DNA of 55,929 nucleotides from positions 1 through 55,929 of IMG/VR virus record IMGVR_UViG_3300050119_000489; one strand, 5' to 3'. The notes below the pieces were generated by a model that saw only the letters and a program-made list of their open reading frames with translations, was not told the origin of the DNA and made no database searches. Shown here in pieces: positions 3,564-34,907 of this stretch (position 1 is the first letter of the stretch; every line of letters starts with the position of its first letter). The stretch is from a virus. The position numbers were made by a program, and so were the translations under genes.

Positions 3564-4976
3564 ATGAGCATGGCTTGCGAATACGCCGATTTCATTAATC
3601 GCAAATCGCAGATTGAGGCGAAGGATGGCTTTGCGCCAAATTTCCTGCCGCGCGCACTGTTCGATTTTCAGGAACATCTTTGTGAGTGGGCGGTGCGAAA
3701 AGGGCGCACGGCGATCTTTGCGGATTGCGGCATGGGGAAAACACTCATGCAGCTCGCTTGGGCTGAAAATGTTGTACGCGAGACCAACAGGCCGGTGCTG
3801 ATAGCGACGCCCCTCGCCGTAGCGCAACAGACCGCGAGAGAAGCCCTAAAGTTCGACATCGAAGCGCATGTATCCTTGGATGGGAAAGTTCGACCTGGGA
3901 TCAATATCGCCAATTATGAGCGCCTTCATTATTTCGATGCCAGCGACTTCGCGGGAATGGTTTGCGATGAAAGCGCGATCCTAAAATCCTTCGACGGCGT
4001 GCGGCGACAAGAGATCACAGATTTCATGCGCAAGATGCGCTACAGACTGCTTTGCATGGCGACGCCATCACCCAACGAATACATTGAACTTGGGACGAGC
4101 TCAGAGGCCCTCGGCTATCTCGGCTATATGGATATGCTGTCAAGGTTTTTCAAAAACAATCAGGGCAATAGCATCAAGCCATTTGTCGCGCGCGATCGCG
4201 GACGAGCCTTTACGCAATTAGATGACAACGCTAAATGGCGCTTCAAGGGCCATGCGGAAGTGCCGTTCTGGAAATGGGTTTGCTCTTGGGCGCGAGCAGT
4301 TCGGAAACCATCAGATATTGGTTTTGATGATGGTCCTTTCGTATTGCCTCCGCTCATCGAGCGCCAGCATTTGGTCGAATCGCGCTCTAATCCAGACGGG
4401 ATGTTATTCGCCCTGCCGGCGTTTGGCTTGCGGGAGCAGCGTGACGAGCGGCGACGCACAATCGAAGAACGGTGCGAACGAGCTGCGGAGCTCGTTGCTG
4501 ACACGGGCGCTGCCGCCATTGCGTGGTGCCACCTGAACGACGAAGGCGACCTTCTAGAAAGCCTTATCTCCGATTGTGTCCAAGTGAGCGGGCGCGACAG
4601 CGAAGAAGCAAAAGAGGAGAAATTCTTAGCCTTCATCGATCAGAAAGCCGGCGCGCGAGTGCTCGTAACGAAGGAAAAGATAGGAGCATGGGGCCTGAAC
4701 TTTCAGCACTGCAATCATTCCGTTTCATTCCCTACGCATAGCTTTGAAGGATACTACCAAAGCGTTCGCCGCTGCTGGCGTTTTGGCCAGAAGAAGCCCG
4801 TGACTGTCGATATTGTCACGACAGAAGGCGAGAAGGATGTCCTCGCCAATTTGCGACGCAAGGCCGAGGCCGCGGACAAAATGTTTGCTGGCCTCGTCGC
4901 TCACATGCGCAGCGAGATTAACGTCAGCAGGTCATTAGAGTTTTGTCAGCCAGAGGAGGTTCCTTCGTGGCTGTAA
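3564..4976 (+). CDS. SNF2-type DEAD/DEAH helicase
   Basis: 470 residues with a superfamily-2 core. Motif I is A-D-C-G-M-G-K-T at 53-60. The Walker B position reads C-D-E-S (134-137) instead of the usual DEAH. The C-terminal lobe has motif V-like G-A-W-G-L-N-F and motif VI Q-S-V-R-R-C-W-R-F-G-Q at ~399-409, the hallmark of SNF2 enzymes. These proteins translocate on duplex DNA. Phage versions often sit next to methyltransferase genes, as here: the 3' end overlaps the methyltransferase start by 10 nt. The gene is probably early and may serve replication or remodelling. Confidence 0.9.
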   Translation: MSMACEYADFINRKSQIEAKDGFAPNFLPRALFDFQEHLCEWAVRKGRTAIFADCGMGKTLMQLAWAENVVRETNRPVLIATPLAVAQQTAREALKFDIEAHVSLDGKVRPGINIANYERLHYFDASDFAGMVCDESAILKSFDGVRRQEITDFMRKMRYRLLCMATPSPNEYIELGTSSEALGYLGYMDMLSRFFKNNQGNSIKPFVARDRGRAFTQLDDNAKWRFKGHAEVPFWKWVCSWARAVRKPSDIGFDDGPFVLPPLIERQHLVESRSNPDGMLFALPAFGLREQRDERRRTIEERCERAAELVADTGAAAIAWCHLNDEGDLLESLISDCVQVSGRDSEEAKEEKFLAFIDQKAGARVLVTKEKIGAWGLNFQHCNHSVSFPTHSFEGYYQSVRRCWRFGQKKPVTVDIVTTEGEKDVLANLRRKAEAADKMFAGLVAHMRSEINVSRSLEFCQPEEVPSWL

Positions 4977-6052
4977 TCGACCAAAAGCTCACGTCACGAT
5001 ACGCGGCCGTTAACGGGGATTGCATTGAGTACATGCAGTCCATGCCGTCTGAAAAGATCCATCTATCGATATATTCGCCGCCATTTGGTGGACTGTTTTG
5101 CTATTCGAGCTCTGATCGAGATCTCTCGAATTGCGGTAGCTATGAGCAATTCTTCGAGCACTACAATTTCGTGGTGAAGGAAATTGCGCGGCTTACTCGC
5201 CCCGGCCGAATGACCGCGGTGCATTGCATGGATGTGCCGTCTGGAAACAGCGGGACGGATCATCTGATTGATTTTCCAGGTGACATTATTCGTCTCCATG
5301 ATAAGCACGGCTTCAAATTTATCGCGCGCTATGCCGTGTGGAAAGAGCCGTTGGCAGTTCGCAATCGCACGATGGCCAAGAACCTTGCGCACCGCTCGCT
5401 CGTCGAAGATTCGTCGCGGTGTAGCGTCGCGTCTGCGGATTATCTGCTTGTCTTCCGCCGTAAGGGGGAAAACAAAATCCCCATCATGCACTCGAACGGT
5501 CTTCTGGAATACGCCGGGGAACGCCCGATTCCTGCTGACCTGTTGAAGTATCGAGGATGGACGGGAAATCAGATTGAGAATCGCTTTTCCCATTGGATCT
5601 GGCGACAATACGCATCGGCGTTTTGGGATGATATCCGGATCGGACGTGTGCTGCCGTTCCGCGGGAGCAGGGACGAGAACGACGAGAAACATGTCCATCC
5701 TCTGCAACTCGACGTCATCGATCGCTGTCTGACGCTTTGGTCAAACCCCGAAGAAACTGTGCTGACGCCCTTTATGGGCGTCGGGTCCGAAGTCTATTCC
5801 GCCCTGCGGCTTGCCCGCAAAGGGGTTGGGATCGAACTGAAGCCCTCTTATTACCAGCAAGCGTTGCGAAATATCGATGCTGTCGGAAGCGCAGATATAG
5901 AACAGCCTGCATTTGACCTTGATCCGCTTGAGCTGGGCACTGCGACGCCTGCCGAGCAAGCAAGCGCTGCGCCTGCATGGGACTCCATGTGGAAGAAGCC
6001 AATCGACCCGCAAAAAATGGCAAGCCTAAAAGCGGGGGAAAGCGGCGAATGA
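4967..6052 (+). CDS. DNA amino-methyltransferase (N4-C or N6-A, beta-type order)
   Basis: 361 residues from GTG 4967, chosen because AGGAGG lies at 4954-4959. The catalytic motif IV SPPF (37-40) comes first. The AdoMet-binding motif I F-M-G-V-G (269-273), followed by G-V-G-I-E, lies near the C terminus, which is the beta-class order. SPP(F/Y) enzymes are commonly N4-cytosine methyltransferases, but N6-adenine cannot be excluded. The specificity is unknown. The gene is sandwiched between the helicase and a GcrA-type regulator whose host counterparts sense methylated promoters. No restriction partner is seen, so it is an orphan enzyme, possibly for genome protection or regulation. Confidence 0.9.
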   Translation: MAVIDQKLTSRYAAVNGDCIEYMQSMPSEKIHLSIYSPPFGGLFCYSSSDRDLSNCGSYEQFFEHYNFVVKEIARLTRPGRMTAVHCMDVPSGNSGTDHLIDFPGDIIRLHDKHGFKFIARYAVWKEPLAVRNRTMAKNLAHRSLVEDSSRCSVASADYLLVFRRKGENKIPIMHSNGLLEYAGERPIPADLLKYRGWTGNQIENRFSHWIWRQYASAFWDDIRIGRVLPFRGSRDENDEKHVHPLQLDVIDRCLTLWSNPEETVLTPFMGVGSEVYSALRLARKGVGIELKPSYYQQALRNIDAVGSADIEQPAFDLDPLELGTATPAEQASAAPAWDSMWKKPIDPQKMASLKAGESGE

Positions 6053-8255: not shown

Positions 8256-9034
8256 AGACGCTCGCCGATGAGATTTTCGATCTGATCCCGGCGCACCCAG
8301 AGGGCCTGACGATTGCGCGCGCGGTTGAGTTGCTGGCGGTTGATGCAGCGCATGTGCGGAAGGCTTTCTATGCGCTGAACGAAACCCAGCGAGCCCGCCT
8401 TCGCAAGCGCCCCCAATCGCGGGAGCTATTCTTCCATCCCTCAAAATGGATTGATTACCGCGATCACAACGCGCCATTCGTTTGCGAGGCTTGCCGGGCC
8501 CCTTTCGGTCCGCCAAAGCATCCGAGGCGTTGTTGCTGTCGCTCATGCGCGGTCTCGTTAAGCTGGCGTGATCCAAATGTACATGCTGCTCGGTGCGCCG
8601 CTATCGGAGTTGAGAGGCGCACGCCCGAAGCGCTGGCACGCACGGCGAGGCTTAATGCGAAGCGGTGGTCCGATCCGGCTGAGCACGAAAAGCTCTCGGA
8701 ACATAATCGCCGCCAGTGGCAAGATCCGCAGCAGCGGGCCTCCCGATCACGCGGCATACGCGCGGCTCACGGAACGCCGGAGAAGCGAAAGTTCTATTCC
8801 GATTTTCGGCGCGCGGCATGGGCCGATCCCGAGCAGCGGCGCAAGATGCAAGAGGCGGCGGCGGAATCTCAGCGCAAAACAAATTATCGTAAGCTGATGG
8901 GCGACAAGCTTCGCGAGCGATGGAAGGATCCAGCTTATCGCGCATTGATGATCGAGAGATCGAAGGCTGCAAAGCGCGCTAAATCAGGAGCGTTTCTGCC
9001 CAAGGGCGAGCAGTCAGCGGAGGCTTGCCCATGA
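8252..9034 (+). CDS. DNA-binding protein with zinc ribbon and 17-residue W-x-DP repeats
   Basis: 260 residues from ATG 8252 (ATGA overlap). Residues 1-65 look like a winged HTH. Residues 78-99 hold a zinc-ribbon-like cysteine set (C78-x2-C81, then C94/C95/C96 and C99). From 105 to ~235 the motif W-x-D-P-x-x-x-R recurs with tryptophans at 105, 139, 156, 190 and 224, all on a 17-residue grid. Degenerate T-P units fill the intermediate positions 122 and 173. Such short helical repeats resemble the NUMOD3-like DNA-binding modules that accompany homing endonucleases, but no nuclease motif is present. It is probably a sequence-specific DNA binder. Confidence 0.65.
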   Translation: MKTLADEIFDLIPAHPEGLTIARAVELLAVDAAHVRKAFYALNETQRARLRKRPQSRELFFHPSKWIDYRDHNAPFVCEACRAPFGPPKHPRRCCCRSCAVSLSWRDPNVHAARCAAIGVERRTPEALARTARLNAKRWSDPAEHEKLSEHNRRQWQDPQQRASRSRGIRAAHGTPEKRKFYSDFRRAAWADPEQRRKMQEAAAESQRKTNYRKLMGDKLRERWKDPAYRALMIERSKAAKRAKSGAFLPKGEQSAEACP

Positions 9035-11517
9035 GCGAGAACGTCGTGCCCATGAAGGCTAACGAACCGGCGGAGCAGGTGCCGGCCGCCGTACCGCTCG
9101 TCTCGATCGAAACCGAGCAAGCGCTCCTCGGGGCCCTTTTGTTCAATAACCACATCCTTCCCGAAGTCGCCGCGATCGTCTCGGTCGAGCATTTTTCGGA
9201 AGACGTACACCGTCGCATCTTCTCCGTCGCGGCCCAGATGATCGAGAGCGGCCAGCGCGCCTCGCCGATCACGATGCCGCCCTACCTCGGCGAGCATAAA
9301 ATCGGAGAGATCACGCTATCGGCCTATCTCGTCCGGCTGGCCGCCAACGCCATCACCGTCTGCGATGCTCCAAACTTTGCGCGTACCGTCCGCGACCTGG
9401 CGCTGCGGCGTAAACTTGCCGAGGCTGGGGATGCTTTGGCGACCAGCGCGCGCGGCGCGGCAATCGGCAGTAACCCCGCAACGCTCGCCTCAAAGGCCAT
9501 AGGCGAGCTGCAGGAGGTCGCCGGCGCCGGACGGGCGCATGATACGCGGGCGGACGTTGGTGTGTCGGCTGCGGCGCTCCTGGCCCGCGCGCAACGCATT
9601 CAGGACGGCACCGAGAAATCACCCGCGATCTCGACCGGCATTCCGGATCTCGACCATGAAACAGGCGGGGGAATCCAGCCCGGCGATCTGTGGCTCGTCG
9701 GAGGCAGGCCAGGTATGGGAAAGGCCCAGCCGCTTGATGCTTTGATCCGGACGCCTAATGGCTGGGTAACGTTCCGTGACGTTTCGGCTGGCCAAGAGAT
9801 CGCGTCGATCGACGGCGCGGCTAATGTTGTCCTCGGTAAGTTTCCGCAGGGCGAAAAAGAGGTGTTTCGGCTTCGCTTTTCTGATGGTCGCAGTGTTGAG
9901 GCATGCGCTGACCACCTTTGGGAGGTGCGTTACCGTGAATGGGGTGTCCCGCGCATCAAAACAACTGAGCAGCTCTGCAAGATGTTGACGCGGGCGCGTT
10001 ATCAAAAGCGGCTGATGATCAGGCAATGCAACGGCGAGTTTGGCGCCGAACAGGCTTTGCCGGTCGACCCGTATCTTCTCGGAGCCATCCTTGGAGACGG
10101 CAGCATACTTTACGGTCGCGTCGGGTTTACCACTGCCGATAAACACATCCTTGACCGCGTCGAAGCGGCTCTGCCACTGGGGATGAGCGCGAACTTTATT
10201 TCGAAGCTCGGATACAACCTGGTTTCGCCACGCGGCAAACCCAACCCTCTCACGGTTGCGTTACGCGATCTCGGGCTAATGGGCCACGGGGCGGCCTCGA
10301 AATTTATTCCAAAGCAATACTTCTTCGGGAGTCGCGTGCAGCGCCTTGAGCTCCTGCGCGGATTGATGGATACCGACGGCTACGCGGGTGCTGACGGCGT
10401 CGTCAGCTTCTCATCGTGCTCGCAGGTGCTATCGCTCGGCGTGCAGGACCTAGCCAGGTCGCTGGGCTATTGGGCGAAGATAGCTCGCAAAGAATGCTTT
10501 CTGACAGTAAACGGCGTGCGGACTCAGCATCGCGACGCCCTCATCGTGACGATCACTGGCGTGGGCATTTCGGAGGTTTTCAGTCTCCCGCGCAAGGTTT
10601 CTCGCTGTTCTAACCGCAAGTGGAATCGCGCTCTGACCGTGGCCGAGATCGTACCGGCCGCACGAAAGGAATGCGCCTGCATCGCGGTTGGTCATCCTAG
10701 CCGGCTTTACATCACGAATGACTACATTCTGACGCACAACTCGATCGTCGCCACCGGCTTCTGCATTCGCATCGCCCAACGCGAGGTCGGCGTAAAGCTC
10801 TTCGAGCACGAAATGAACGAGGGCCAAACCACGGCCCGCTTTCTATCGGATCTCAGCTATCGCAAGGACCGGCGTATCGTTTACCGGCAGATCGTCACCG
10901 GCGATATAAACCCGACCGAAATGTGGTGCCTCGAGGATGCGCAGAAGCGCCTCGCCAAAATGCCGATCGTGGTCGACTATGCCACGGGCCTGACGCTGCC
11001 GGAAATCGCGGCCAGGATCCGCTCCGAAAAGACGAAGATGGACAAGGACGGCGTCAAGCTGGGCGTCGTCATCATCGATTATCTGCAGCTCGTCCAGGTG
11101 GCCGAGCGCTACCGCGGCAACCGCACCTATGAGCTCGCGGAGATTACCGCGGGCCTGAAGAAGCTCGCCAAGGACGAGAACATCGGCATCGTCGCCTTGT
11201 CGCAACTCACCCGCGCCAGTGCCGGCTATGAGCGCAAGGACAAGCGGCCGAACCTCACCGATCTGCGCGACAGCGGCGCGCTCGAGGCTGACGCGGACGT
11301 CGTCGTCTTCATTCATCGCGAGTCCTACTACCTCGCCAATTCGCCCGAGTACCGCAACGGAGACGAGGAGGCGGTGCAGAAGTTTCTCGACACCCAAAAC
11401 GAGGCGGAGCTGCTGATCGCGAAAACACGGCTCGGCGCAACCAAGCAGGTGAAGATTTGGTGCGACGTCGGCTGCTCGACGTTTGCTGCGCAGGCGAGAG
11501 GGGAGGGGATGTTCTGA
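9031..11517 (+). CDS. dnaB: Replicative DNA helicase DnaB with in-frame intein
   Basis: 828 residues, of which residues 232-570 are an intein. The mature helicase would be 489 residues, a normal DnaB size. Start ATG 9031 follows GCGGAGG and overlaps the previous stop (ATGA). Residues ~25-125 are the DnaB N-terminal domain (S-I-E-T-E-Q-A-L-L-G-A-L-L). The RecA-like motor starts ~200. Its Walker A loop GGRPGMGK (224-231) is cut exactly between Lys and Ser and resumes as S571-I-V-A-T-G. Downstream are Walker B VVIIDYLQLV, the S-Q-L-T-R loop and D-L-R-D-S-G. It unwinds DNA at the phage fork, and splicing should be obligatory because the ATP site is interrupted. Confidence 0.95.
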   Translation: MSENVVPMKANEPAEQVPAAVPLVSIETEQALLGALLFNNHILPEVAAIVSVEHFSEDVHRRIFSVAAQMIESGQRASPITMPPYLGEHKIGEITLSAYLVRLAANAITVCDAPNFARTVRDLALRRKLAEAGDALATSARGAAIGSNPATLASKAIGELQEVAGAGRAHDTRADVGVSAAALLARAQRIQDGTEKSPAISTGIPDLDHETGGGIQPGDLWLVGGRPGMGKAQPLDALIRTPNGWVTFRDVSAGQEIASIDGAANVVLGKFPQGEKEVFRLRFSDGRSVEACADHLWEVRYREWGVPRIKTTEQLCKMLTRARYQKRLMIRQCNGEFGAEQALPVDPYLLGAILGDGSILYGRVGFTTADKHILDRVEAALPLGMSANFISKLGYNLVSPRGKPNPLTVALRDLGLMGHGAASKFIPKQYFFGSRVQRLELLRGLMDTDGYAGADGVVSFSSCSQVLSLGVQDLARSLGYWAKIARKECFLTVNGVRTQHRDALIVTITGVGISEVFSLPRKVSRCSNRKWNRALTVAEIVPAARKECACIAVGHPSRLYITNDYILTHNSIVATGFCIRIAQREVGVKLFEHEMNEGQTTARFLSDLSYRKDRRIVYRQIVTGDINPTEMWCLEDAQKRLAKMPIVVDYATGLTLPEIAARIRSEKTKMDKDGVKLGVVIIDYLQLVQVAERYRGNRTYELAEITAGLKKLAKDENIGIVALSQLTRASAGYERKDKRPNLTDLRDSGALEADADVVVFIHRESYYLANSPEYRNGDEEAVQKFLDTQNEAELLIAKTRLGATKQVKIWCDVGCSTFAAQARGEGMF
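9724..10740 (+). mobile_element. Class 3 intein with LAGLIDADG endonuclease, in dnaB
   Basis: 339 residues (helicase numbering 232-570). The first residue is Ala, not Cys or Ser, so the usual N-terminal nucleophile is missing. The three residues that define class 3 inteins are all present: Trp297 two residues after the block B His295, Cys550 at block F position 4, and Thr568 directly before the terminal His569-Asn570. The +1 extein residue is Ser571. Two LAGLIDADG helices are seen, YLLGAILGDG (348-357) and LLRGLMDTDG (441-450), so the homing endonuclease looks intact. The insertion splits the P-loop Lys-Ser, a known DnaB intein site. Confidence 0.92.
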
Positions 11518-11870
11518 TGGCTTCGCCAGATCCCGTCTCAAAACTTCCGGCAGTCGTCAGATCGCAGCAAGCTCATGCAGCGGCCATGCGGCGTCCGATG
11601 CTGGGCGTCAGGATGGTAGGGGACCCGCGTTTCGATGATGCTGAAAACGATCTCATCGCCGATCTTCTGACGCGGCGAGCGGTCCAATATGCTACCGCAA
11701 TGCTCCGCCGGGACGGTCGCCTAGGCGACAATCTCCGCGAGGTCGATGCGGAATTCGCTCCGCCAGCGACGGTCTTGTTTTTTCGCGCCGATAAATCACG
11801 CACCAAGCTTGCCGAATTCACCGTGCCCGAGCGGGTGATGAGCTTTGACCCTACGGGGGGTGCCCCGTGA
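11517..11870 (+). CDS. Hypothetical early protein (117 aa)
   Basis: 117 residues from ATG 11517, sharing a base with the dnaB stop (TGATG) and preceded by GAGGGGAGGGG. There are no recognisable domains. The middle (DDAENDLIADLLTRRAVQYATAML) is helical, and the end contains a strand-like V-L-F-F-R and E-F-T-V-P-E-R-V. Its tight position between dnaB and the P-loop gene suggests a replication accessory role, but this is inference from context only. Confidence 0.65.
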   Translation: MASPDPVSKLPAVVRSQQAHAAAMRRPMLGVRMVGDPRFDDAENDLIADLLTRRAVQYATAMLRRDGRLGDNLREVDAEFAPPATVLFFRADKSRTKLAEFTVPERVMSFDPTGGAP

Positions 11871-12493
11871 CCCTTCACCCTCCTTCGAACCAAAATGCCG
11901 AGTTTCTCAGCGCCCTGAGCCTTGAAACCGGCAAGTCGCCGGCTCCTGTTCGCAAAGCGGCTGCCGCCCTCGCCGTTGTACCGTCACCGGCACCCGATGT
12001 GGTTCTTGGAGAGGCCGATACGGGCGGCGCGGTTGGCTTTGATCTCTCTGCCTTGATCGAGGGCCGTCTTCTTATTCAAGGCGTCTCGGGCGCCGGCAAG
12101 TCCTGGACCCTGCGCAGGCTGCTCGAGCAAAGCGCCGGCCGCGTGCAGCAGATCATCATCGATCCGGAAGGCGAATTCAGCACCTTGGCTGAGCCGCTTG
12201 GGCTGACCAGGCTCGATGCCGCCAAGCTCCTCGGCATGGACAACAAGACCATCTGCACCTGGTGCATCGCCGGCGACCTGAAGGCCACCAAACGCGGCAC
12301 GAAGCGGCTGGTGCAGCAGGGTGGCGACACCTGGTCGATCCAGCCTGCTGATCTCCGCGCCTTCGTCATCGACAATCTCGAGCGCATCGATATCCGCAAG
12401 GTAGAGAAGTTCTCTTTTGTGGCGCTGATCGCTGATGGGACAGGCGCGAAGGATAAGGGCTCCCTTAAGCAGAGGGATAACCCTGATGGCTAA
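11867..12493 (+). CDS. HerA-like P-loop stub fused to a DNA-binding domain
   Basis: 208 residues from GTG 11867 (overlaps the previous TGA). Residues ~45-110 look like the start of a HerA/FtsK-type ATPase: V-S-G-A-G-K-S-W-T-L-R-R (Walker A), then Q-Q-I-I-I-D-P-E-G-E-F. There the ATPase ends, with most of the RecA core missing. Residues ~112-200 continue as a different domain starting L-G-L-T-R-L-D-A-A-K-L-L-G-M-D, with an excisionase/MerR-like HTH look and QQGGDTWSIQPADLRAF. It could bind DNA and perhaps nucleotide but is unlikely to be a working translocase. It overlaps the next gene by 8 nt. Confidence 0.65.
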   Translation: MTLHPPSNQNAEFLSALSLETGKSPAPVRKAAAALAVVPSPAPDVVLGEADTGGAVGFDLSALIEGRLLIQGVSGAGKSWTLRRLLEQSAGRVQQIIIDPEGEFSTLAEPLGLTRLDAAKLLGMDNKTICTWCIAGDLKATKRGTKRLVQQGGDTWSIQPADLRAFVIDNLERIDIRKVEKFSFVALIADGTGAKDKGSLKQRDNPDG

Positions 12494-31656: not shown

Positions 31657-31826
31657 GCAGGGACCCGTGCCTGCGCAATTGCCTTGCGCTTGTCAAACAC
31701 GGCGTCCCTTTCGATGTCGCATTCTCGCTTAACTGGCCTGAAATTATCGCGTGGCTGGTGATCTTCGGCGAACTGGATGGCTTCGAATTCAGTTGGTCTA
31801 AGATGCGGTTTTTGGACCCAAGCTGA
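31647..31826 (+). CDS. -1 frameshift extension of the tail assembly chaperone
   Basis: Slippery heptamer A-AAA-AAT at 31647-31653 (zero frame GCA AAA AAT TAA). After a -1 slip the next codon is TTA at 31653, and 57 codons follow without a stop: R-D-P-C-L-R-N-C-L-A-L-V-K-H-G-V-P, then W-L-V-I-F-G-E-L-D-G, to TGA 31824-31826. That TGA shares a base with the next gene's ATG. A 5-bp hairpin GCAGG (31657-31661)/CCTGC (31670-31674) follows the slip site. The fused form is ~195 residues. This is the classic G/GT device of long-tailed phages. Confidence 0.85.
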   Translation, partial: KKLSRDPCLRNCLALVKHGVPFDVAFSLNWPEIIAWLVIFGELDGFEFSWSKMRFLDPS

Positions 31827-32260
31827 TGATGACCTTGCTACAAGGCGCTGCGCTGTTCACAGAGATGGGCGTGCGCTATCAAGCTGGCATTCACGATGCG
31901 CTGGACACTGCCTGCCGTGTCATCGAGACCGAGGCTAAGCGGGTCATCGGCACGTATGATTATGGCTGGACCCCTCTTCAGCCAGAGACGATCGAGCGCA
32001 AGGCGACCGGCGATAGCCCGCTGCTCGAAACTGGTGAAATGCGCGATTCGATCGAGCATACCGTCGAAGGCAAGTCAGGCCATGTCGGCTCAGACAACGA
32101 CAAGGCGGTGTGGCAGGAGCTCGGCACGTCGCGCGGAATTCCGCCTCGCTCATTCCTCGCTGGCGCTGCCATGCACAAGGGCCACGAGGCTGCGCGCGCG
32201 ATCGGCTATACGCTTTTCGAAGCGATGAACGGTCGCAAGGTTTCTATCGGCCCGTTATAG
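31826..32260 (+). CDS. Tail-completion/virion-morphogenesis protein (gp10-like)
   Basis: 144 residues from ATG 31826, coupled to the frameshifted chaperone end (TGATG). It has T-P-L-Q-P-E-T-I-E-R-K, then L-L-E-T-G-E-M-R-D-S-I, and V-W-Q-E-L-G-T-S-R-G-I-P-P-R-S-F-L, the pattern of the HK97 gp10/Mu morphogenesis family. It helps finish tail or head joining. The 3' end overlaps the converging membrane GIY-YIG gene by 17 nt. Confidence 0.75.
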   Translation: MMTLLQGAALFTEMGVRYQAGIHDALDTACRVIETEAKRVIGTYDYGWTPLQPETIERKATGDSPLLETGEMRDSIEHTVEGKSGHVGSDNDKAVWQELGTSRGIPPRSFLAGAAMHKGHEAARAIGYTLFEAMNGRKVSIGPL

Positions 32261-32975
32261 CGCGGCCGAGACCTTCGACCCAGCGCGGAACGCAATAGAG
32301 AAGCCAGATCAGAAGCGCCCAAGCGGTAATGAGGACGACGATAGAGAAGGCGAGCCAAGGCTCGTAAGTGCCGTCTTTCGTCATCGTGCTCACGCCAACC
32401 CAAATCATCATGATCGGGAAGAAGCCGGTTACGAGCAGAAGCGCAATGCCCCATTTTGCTTGAAACGAAAGATGACGCCTGGGTGCTTGCGCTGCGGCGA
32501 ACTGGTCCTGTTTCGCCGCTATCGCCAAGACGGTGCTGATCTTATCAATCGGGATCTCCACAATGGGATCCTTTAGACGAAACGATGCTGCGCCAATGGC
32601 GGCGACCGCAAGCTCCGGAGTGGTCTCGAACCACTCGCCGGTTAGCCGGTGATTGACGAGCATATTGTGCGCCACTTGCTCGATGGCATAACCATCGTCG
32701 CTTTTTGGAACTGCGACATAGGCCAATTCCAAACGTGAAGCCGACGCTGTTTGCAAACCAGCGAGCCGTGCGATGGGGTCGGCCGTGATCCCGAGTTTAA
32801 TCGGGCCCGCCTCTGACTTGATGACATAGATGAAAGACGGCGGCCGTGGCGAGGGGTTGGTGGTAGGACGAGAGGGCCCAGGACCGGAGCGGGCGTTCGC
32901 CTGAAAATCCTGCGGGCCGAAGCTGATGCCAGTTCGCCGTCCGAAAATGCGTGGCCCTGAAAACCAGAAGCGCAT
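32244..32975 (-). CDS. Membrane-anchored GIY-YIG domain protein, probable moron
   Basis: 243 residues read leftward. A disordered proline-rich head (1-46) is followed by a GIY-YIG/T5orf172-like domain (~47-125): F-I-Y-V-I-K (48-53), K-L-G-I-T (60-64), the helix D-P-I-A-R-L with Arg70, then Glu99 in A-I-E-Q-V, and G-E-W-F-E (113-117). A linker leads to two transmembrane helices (~176-195 and ~207-228), placing the domain in the cytoplasm. Its own strong promoter lies at 32982-33010. A single accessory gene opposite to the tail operon is typical of a lysogenic-conversion or exclusion moron. Nuclease activity is not proven. Confidence 0.7.
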   Translation of the reverse strand: MRFWFSGPRIFGRRTGISFGPQDFQANARSGPGPSRPTTNPSPRPPSFIYVIKSEAGPIKLGITADPIARLAGLQTASASRLELAYVAVPKSDDGYAIEQVAHNMLVNHRLTGEWFETTPELAVAAIGAASFRLKDPIVEIPIDKISTVLAIAAKQDQFAAAQAPRRHLSFQAKWGIALLLVTGFFPIMMIWVGVSTMTKDGTYEPWLAFSIVVLITAWALLIWLLYCVPRWVEGLGRAITGR

Positions 32976-32981
32976 AAGGAC

Positions 32982-33010
32982 AATATATCGCCAATGAGTG
33001 ACATCTACAA
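32982..33010 (-). promoter_or_regulatory. Sigma70-type promoter of the membrane GIY-YIG gene
   Basis: On the minus strand TTGTAG (-35, 33005-33010), 17-bp spacer, TATATT (-10, 32982-32987). The ATG begins 7 nt beyond the -10, so the transcript should start at or next to the ATG and be leaderless. The -35 lies inside the tape measure coding sequence. This promoter is independent of the late operon. Confidence 0.7.
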
Positions 33011-34907
33011 GATTGGCGTAGAGATCGCGCTAACAGGCTCAATACTTCAAGGGCTTGAGGCGATTTCGTCTCGGCTGCTGGGCCTCAACCTTCAGGCGAA
33101 GAACGTCGAGGGCGGCTTTAAGCGGATGGCTGTGGCTATCGGCGGCGTCGCGTCGATCTTTGGCGGCGTGGCCGTCTTTAAAGGTATGGAAAAGGTCGTT
33201 TCGGCCGGCGGCGAGCTCGTCAAGCAGCAGGCGCTGCTGCGCAATCTCGGCGTTAGCCAGGCCGATGTCATGGAGACCACGGCCAAGGCCCAACTTGCGA
33301 CCCATAAGATCATCGGCACCACGATCGCCGAGAACGTCAAGGGCATGCGCGAGATGATGGGCGTCATGCCCAATCTGAAGGAGGCGCAAGACAAATACGT
33401 CAGCACAATGCAGGCGGCCAAGGTCCTCGAGAGCCTGACCGGCACTCCCGCCGATCAATCGTTGCAGACGCTCGCCAAGGCGATCGAATTACGCGGCGGC
33501 GGCGTCGATCCTAAGACGCACCAGCTCGACCCTGAGCGGTTTCAGCGTGAGGCGATCGCGGCCACGAAGGCGATCATCGCTTCTGGTGGCCTCGTGAACG
33601 CGCAGCAGCTTCTCGCCATGATGAAGACGGCGGGCCCCATGGCCCGCATGATCGACAACCCTGACGTCTTCTACAAAGGCATCATCACTGCGATGATGGA
33701 TATGGGCGGCTTCCGAGCCGGCACCGCAATGACAGCTCTCGGCCGCCAGCTGCTCGGCGGCAAGATGACGAAACCGACCGCCGAAGAAATGGAGCGCTTC
33801 GGGGTGTTGAAGCATGGCGGCTGGCATTCCTCCGGCGTCGGCGTTTATGTCGATCCGGGCGCCTTGAAGGGCGAAGACATTCTCAAGGATTCCAATCGCG
33901 GCGTTGCGGCTTGGATGAACTTGGTCCTGATTCCAGCATTCAATCAAATGGGCTTGAAGTCCAACGCCGACGTGCAGCAAGAACTCTATCGCTTCTTCGG
34001 CACAGAAACCGCGCGTCGAACGGCCGGTCTGTTTGTTCAGAACCAAGGCCAGATTGCTCGCGACGCAAAACTCTACGACCAGGCGCTTGGCGGTCAGGCT
34101 TATGGAAATGTCGCAGCTGGTGATCTAGGCGCAAACGTCACGAACCTGCAAACGGCCTTCACCAATCTCATGCAGGCCTTCGGCGCGCCGATGGTGCCCG
34201 TTGCGATCCAGGCGATGCAGAGCCTCGCCAATGCCATGAACAACATGGCTGGCTTCGCGTTGGCGCATCCTGGCGCGATGAAGATGATCGGCGAGGGGCT
34301 TGTCGGCTTGAGCGCCGGTCTTGTTGCGCTTGGCGTTGGGGCGGTGATCGCTGCGGCGGTGGCGCTGGCTCCTGGCGGAATGATAGCGGCCGCAATCGTC
34401 GGAATCGGCGCGGCAGTGGCGGCGTTGGCCGCCATGAACTGGTCCGGCGTGAGCAAAGGATTGCAAGATTTTCGAGATAGCGCCGACAAATGGCACGCCT
34501 CGGTTCACGACGCGATCGCCAGCTTGGCATCGCGCTTTGTTACTGAGGTCAGTGCACTGCCCGGTATAGTCGGCGGAGCCATCAAGGCGGCGTTTGCCGC
34601 GATAGGCTCCGAGATCATTTCCGCTGTCAGCGCTATTCCTGGAGAGATCGCAAAGAGCGTCGGCGGGTTCTTCAATAATCAAGCGCCAGTGGGTCGTCAC
34701 AATCCACTTCTAAACAAGAACAGCTTCGTCACGCCGCGCGGTCGGGCAGCCGTGCATGTTACCACCGCTCTCAACCTCGACGGCCGCGAGCTCGCGCGGG
34801 CGGTTTCATATCATGTCGCCGCACTCTATGAGCATCCGCTCAAGGCACCGTACTTCGACGACCACGAAGGCTACGCCGGTCCCGATATGCAGACGGTGAC
34901 AACCTGA
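32994..34907 (+). CDS. Tail tape measure protein
   Basis: 637 residues. The long helical, alanine-rich body has phage tape-measure features: M-E-K-V-V-S-A-G-G-E-L-V-K-Q-Q-A-L-L-R-N-L-G-V near the start, and a hydrophobic double segment ~430-480 (G-L-V-A-L-G-V-G-A-V-I-A-A-A, A-A-I-V-G-I-G-A-A-V) that may enter the membrane on ejection. At roughly 1.5 angstroms per residue the tail would be near 95 nm. Its start lies 18 nt from the start of the divergent GIY-YIG gene. Confidence 0.85.
   Translation: MSDIYKIGVEIALTGSILQGLEAISSRLLGLNLQAKNVEGGFKRMAVAIGGVASIFGGVAVFKGMEKVVSAGGELVKQQALLRNLGVSQADVMETTAKAQLATHKIIGTTIAENVKGMREMMGVMPNLKEAQDKYVSTMQAAKVLESLTGTPADQSLQTLAKAIELRGGGVDPKTHQLDPERFQREAIAATKAIIASGGLVNAQQLLAMMKTAGPMARMIDNPDVFYKGIITAMMDMGGFRAGTAMTALGRQLLGGKMTKPTAEEMERFGVLKHGGWHSSGVGVYVDPGALKGEDILKDSNRGVAAWMNLVLIPAFNQMGLKSNADVQQELYRFFGTETARRTAGLFVQNQGQIARDAKLYDQALGGQAYGNVAAGDLGANVTNLQTAFTNLMQAFGAPMVPVAIQAMQSLANAMNNMAGFALAHPGAMKMIGEGLVGLSAGLVALGVGAVIAAAVALAPGGMIAAAIVGIGAAVAALAAMNWSGVSKGLQDFRDSADKWHASVHDAIASLASRFVTEVSALPGIVGGAIKAAFAAIGSEIISAVSAIPGEIAKSVGGFFNNQAPVGRHNPLLNKNSFVTPRGRAAVHVTTALNLDGRELARAVSYHVAALYEHPLKAPYFDDHEGYAGPDMQTVTT

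Follow-up and report, generated by a model that had tools for sequence, protein, structure and literature searches.

A membrane-anchored GIY-YIG protein encoded antisense in the tail operon of contractile-tail phages, a candidate superinfection-exclusion nuclease

SNIPE (formerly PD-lambda-1; Nature 2026) is a membrane-bound GIY-YIG protein that has been shown experimentally to cut phage DNA during injection.(PMC13190303) Its catalytic Glu is essential, its anchor prevents the cutting of host DNA, and loss of the anchor renders it toxic to the host.(PMC13190303) The protein probably binds tape-measure proteins through its DUF4041 domain,(PMC13190303) and it is largely by location, together with contact with the injection machinery, that SNIPE separates self from non-self DNA.(PMC13190303) HK97 gp15 is a prophage inner-membrane protein that blocks injection,(PMC10883804) the moron Tab is established as acting on tape-measure proteins,(PMC10884400) and the T5orf172 protein Odn (Gp88) of ICP1 is a proven nuclease in the conflict with a phage satellite, for which the same Glu is needed.(PMC8263062) In a literature search for membrane-anchored GIY-YIG prophage proteins, the first PD-lambda-1 paper was the only relevant report, and judging from the full-text literature on Bradyrhizobium, prophages, and superinfection exclusion, few exclusion systems seem to have been described for rhizobial phages.

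The window analyzed here, i.e., the whole stretch of 55,929 bases that constitutes an IMG/VR virus record, contains terminase and portal genes and a contractile-tail module, the sheath gene of which was assigned from a weak profile match and from its similarity to an annotated sheath gene. Within the tail operon, as the preliminary description had stated, one gene runs antisense to its two neighbors (both on the plus strand), and its reading frame occupies the entire interval between the end of the tail-completion gene at 32260 and the start of the tape-measure-like gene at 32994. The features of the locus are as follows:

31826..32260, plus strand: left flank, tail completion/Neck1 gene (phrog_222, 5e-17)
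32244..32975, minus strand: gene of the membrane-anchored GIY-YIG protein (ORF, 243 aa; MUG113/T5orf172 matches; 21 relatives)
32298..32447, minus strand: transmembrane hairpin (segments 177-195 and 208-226 by hydropathy; AlphaFold helices 171-197 and 206-241)
32595..32834, minus strand: GIY-YIG (MUG113/T5orf172) domain, residues 48-127, with Arg70, Glu99, His103, and Glu-Trp-Phe 114-116 conserved
32916..32975, minus strand: N-terminal motif shared within subfamily A (residues 1-20, MRFWFSGPRIFGRRTGISFG), identified by its conservation there
32982..33010, minus strand: proposed promoter TTGTAG-17-TATATT (8/12 matches; unsupported)
32994..34907, plus strand: right flank, tape-measure-like gene (phrog_28, 3.5e-8)

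Elsewhere in the window, a DnaB helicase gene (9025-11517, plus strand, 830 aa) carries a LAGLIDADG insert at approximately residues 440-501, which is probably an intein, and the gene at 4943-6052 (plus strand), which a helicase gene adjoins, matches both DNA methyltransferase and helicase families.

The assignment of the antisense protein to the GIY-YIG nucleases rests on profile matches of the window protein to MUG113 (E=9.5e-10, 39.4 bits against a curated cut-off of 22.3) and T5orf172 (E=2.1e-8, 35 bits against a curated cut-off of 20), both of which were matched by all 11 members of the subfamily-A alignment A2 as well. In a structure model obtained with AlphaFold2, which was fed with ten family members, the GIY core reached pLDDT values of 93-98; the best viral structural matches that carry names were MUG113, T5orf172, or GIY-YIG proteins, and sequence and fold searches of the PDB with the protein returned no meaningful match. 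None of the 22 family members described below deviates at Tyr50, Gly62, or Glu99, and Lys60, Arg70, and His103 are each kept in 21, so that both residues singled out in the preliminary description for mutation, Arg70 and Glu99, were correctly named. The protein is a probable nuclease, as judged from its sequence. A match to PDC-S57 of PADLOC (23 bits, E=1.2e-5), which pairs residues 47-172 with positions 6-131 of a 212-position profile and is therefore not full-length, was dropped as too weak for membership.

The two transmembrane helices that had been proposed correspond to the hydrophobic segments 177-195 and 208-226, which were modeled by AlphaFold2 as a C-terminal helical hairpin at moderate confidence. 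Three Lys/Arg and no acidic residues precede the first segment, two Lys/Arg and one acidic residue follow the second, and the short loop between them holds one basic and two acidic residues, a distribution that favors cytoplasmic termini; the GIY domain and both ends of the protein are accordingly predicted to face the cytoplasm. Across the family, C-terminal transmembrane segments, one or two in number, were found in 22 of 22 members, as called from windowed hydropathy and a single structure model. The sequence gives good support for a GIY-YIG protein that is anchored in the membrane and keeps its catalytic residues.

A pattern scan of viral contigs with the single protein recovered no homologue. 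The family was assembled by gathering related phage contigs via the sheath gene, locating homologues in their tail regions, and then scanning with family alignments, which resulted in 22 distinct contigs that encode the family, the window included; Bradyrhizobium prophages are among them. The proteins measure 170-243 aa and fall into two subfamilies. Subfamily A (14 members) begins with the motif MRFFFxGPRxxGIRPGISFG; in every contig that shows both flanks, its gene is antisense and separates the tail-completion gene from the tape-measure gene. M1-R2, P8, and G12-x-R14-x-G16 do not vary in any of the 11 A2 rows, which supports the start codon. In subfamily B (8 members), the protein opens with the GIY domain itself, and its gene is found upstream of the chaperone/tail-completion genes, again in antisense orientation. 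Conservation is higher in the GIY domain than in the anchor, and two close pairs show purifying selection, with dN/dS of 0.14-0.31 and 0.05-0.07 by two methods. One member (contig L079, 5995-6663, plus strand) has an 80-residue extension past a single transmembrane segment, which would be expected to be periplasmic.

Several family contigs are short metagenome fragments, and lifestyle and context are known for part of the family. Copies are present in contigs of Bradyrhizobium sp. Tv2a-2 and B. lablabi that extend over several hundred kilobases, with the surrounding tail module conserved; in B. lablabi, approximately 43 kb separate an integrase from the first match to the tail module, and the two likely belong to one prophage. 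A further copy occurs in a MAG labeled Rhodocyclaceae, which may be mis-binned. Among GIY matches in approximately 800 sampled genomes of the host family or host order, the layout of a GIY domain plus C-terminal anchor was seen in the prophage copies only; a few of the others have a lone hydrophobic stretch, and nearly all lack a transmembrane segment. As far as searched, the anchored version appears to be confined to this contractile-tail phage group. Of named phages, the two whose sheath is related, Komagataeibacter phiKX1/2, have more distant tail modules, and in phiKX1 no annotated antisense gene was found just upstream of the long gene of tape-measure size.

Comparison of the insertion sites bears out the earlier proposal that the gene is a moron. 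In eight loci lacking it, the stop of the tail-completion gene and the start of the tape-measure gene are separated by 0-11 bp, and in most carriers the gap is approximately 570-760 bp and is filled by the antisense GIY gene. The gap of one carrier (L065) is 1278 bp, with an extra plus-strand ORF (8468-9139, 223 aa) between the GIY and tape-measure genes. Wherever flanks are visible, the gene is antisense to the late genes, at two tail junctions and at the terminase gene of contig L151, where, going by names read from the translations, it sits between a YqaJ-like exonuclease gene and the terminase large-subunit gene. Because relatives have empty sites, the orientation is antisense at several sites, and the family is confined to the group as far as searched, it is well supported that the GIY gene is an accessory (moron) insertion in a contractile-tail phage group with prophage members.

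The window phage itself is probably temperate. An HTH repressor-like gene is located at 411-722 on the minus strand, opposite to the early genes; a tyrosine integrase was looked for in the 55,929-base window, and none was found. The GIY gene may be expressed in lysogens, and the promoter offered earlier as evidence for this is indistinguishable from chance. That site, described as a good sigma70 promoter, matches the consensus at 3/6 positions in the -35 box and 5/6 in the -10 box, is one of 295 sites in the window scoring at least 8/12, and has a -35 box that is the antisense of the tape-measure codons Tyr-Lys-Ile; no equivalent -35/-10 pair was found at the same position in the homologues checked, and a stricter scan of the region of the GIY gene yielded no promoter-like site. 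The accompanying suggestion of a leaderless mRNA survives in part, since the window gene is not preceded by a Shine-Dalgarno match and leaderless initiation is possible there, but most homologues do have an SD-like match, so such initiation is not general in the family.

The gene, its domain, catalytic residues, and transmembrane segments, the family, the insertion at empty sites, and the copies in bacterial genomes are established directly. The job that appears most likely for the protein, to which about an even chance is given, is superinfection exclusion, in which a nuclease expressed from the prophage and tethered to the membrane would cut DNA as it comes in. In the mechanism proposed here, the C-terminal anchor would hold the GIY-YIG nuclease on the cytoplasmic side of the inner membrane, where, in a lysogen, the enzyme would wait at a distance from most of the nucleoid and would cut the DNA of a rival phage as it leaves the injection channel. 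Counting in favor of this reading are the domain with its active-site residues, the anchor in all 22 members, the insertion antisense to late genes, the copies in Bradyrhizobium genomes, the purifying selection in close pairs, and the precedents of SNIPE, Odn, HK97 gp15, and Tab. Profile searches with the window protein and 11 members detected neither DUF4041 nor any other known DNA- or tape-measure-binding domain, and the candidates for finding injection sites without DUF4041 would be the anchor and, in subfamily A, the conserved motif at the N terminus.

Besides the missing binding domain, the lack of a convincing promoter, and the tyrosine integrase not found in the window, two sets of observations count against exclusion by a nuclease, and these two lead to an alternative in which the membrane part hinders DNA entry in the manner of HK97 gp15, with a GIY domain that only binds DNA or is decaying. 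The first is the member in L151 (2418-3083, plus strand), which has lost Arg70 and His103 and is catalytically degenerate. The second is the presence of antisense ORFs at the same sites that encode transmembrane segments only. In L008, the tail-completion/tape-measure gap of 237 bp holds a 65-aa ORF with one transmembrane segment and no nuclease domain (approximately 12222-12430, minus strand), preceded by a good Shine-Dalgarno; in L030, a 105-aa ORF with two transmembrane segments, also with a good Shine-Dalgarno, occupies the subfamily-B site (11540-11857, minus strand), and a 105-aa two-segment ORF is likewise present at that site in L024, L027, L028, and L054. With two catalytic residues gone from the L151 protein and small transmembrane ORFs alone retained at these sites in L008 and L030, the nuclease part may be dispensable, and both HK97 gp15 and P22 SieA provide precedent for exclusion by a membrane protein. 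Against this, Lys60, Arg70, Glu99, and His103 are kept in 21 of the 22 members, the GIY domain is conserved better than the anchor, and any homology between the small ORFs and the anchor is tentative (for the L008 ORF, 2 of 22 comparisons were notable), which leaves exclusion by the anchor alone as an unlikely explanation.

It could also be argued that the gene is a free-standing homing endonuclease, i.e., a selfish gene lodged between tail genes with incidental transmembrane segments, given that GIY-YIG is a common homing-endonuclease fold, that the gene lies between other genes at sites that are empty in relatives, and that there is more than one insertion site. In that case, however, neither the anchor in all 22 members nor a C-terminal part that is transmembrane, with no DNA-recognition module found in Pfam, would be expected. 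The divergence of the GIY domain, moreover, tracks that of the tail-completion gene next to it (Mantel r 0.70, 0/2000 permutations), a correlation that may stem in part from the split between subfamilies A and B, and does so better than that of the sheath (0.40), tube (0.23), or gpU (0.20) genes, which suggests that the gene has been inherited or exchanged with its neighbors rather than homing freely; a selfish origin is thus considered quite improbable. Least probable is another membrane-linked role, such as a lytic-cycle function (e.g., breakdown of host DNA) or abortive infection upon membrane damage, which is conceivable in that accessory-gene placement alone leaves the function unfixed and a nuclease could target host DNA, but which has no specific support and fits poorly with an orientation opposite to the late genes and with a membrane location that suits entering DNA more than the nucleoid.

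Should compact prophage proteins of this kind indeed cut entering DNA without DUF4041, a simpler design than that of SNIPE may suffice, and phages would be using the trick against one another. The antisense slots in tail operons would then be places in which to seek exclusion genes in rhizobial phages, and a family of proteins of 170-243 aa offers a tractable test case.

Compared with the known systems, the nuclease-based exclusion proposed here is closest in principle to SNIPE, with which the protein shares a membrane anchor, a GIY-YIG domain (cytoplasmic in SNIPE and predicted to be so here), and a proposed access to entering DNA via its location at the membrane. The architecture differs, in that SNIPE has the order N-terminal transmembrane segment, DUF4041, and C-terminal GIY-YIG, whereas here the GIY domain (48-127) comes first and the transmembrane segments (177-226) are C-terminal; the protein is, furthermore, phage-carried, and the window protein shows no match to DUF4041 at E <= 1. 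Membership in SNIPE was rejected on the grounds of the reversed domain order and the missing DUF4041 (in the window protein and in the families listed for 11 members). With HK97 gp15 and other inner-membrane exclusion morons it has in common that it is a small membrane protein encoded by a phage accessory gene with a proposed block of entry, but it differs from the HK97 gp15 type, which blocks injection and for which a nuclease role is undescribed in PMC10883804, in its nuclease domain and antisense position. Odn and the soluble T5orf172/MUG113 proteins of phages fall into the same subgroup of GIY-YIG proteins and likewise have the catalytic Arg and Glu; Odn, however, is targeted by a RepA-like DNA-binding domain, in place of which the present protein has a membrane anchor. 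Zorya and Kiwa likewise use the membrane as the site for catching entering DNA, although they are multi-protein systems of unrelated components.(PMC12904381) The "possible new exclusion system" of the preliminary description is therefore new in the layout of the variant, its principle being already known from SNIPE. The protein may share the mode of action of SNIPE although it is no member of that group. It is tentatively suggested, with the odds judged to lie somewhat below even, that this phage family arrived independently at the SNIPE principle with fewer than 250 aa, a GIY-YIG domain plus a C-terminal anchor, and no known recruiting domain, such that prophages would cut rival DNA at entry from genes held in antisense slots of the tail operon, where some relatives carry small transmembrane-only proteins.
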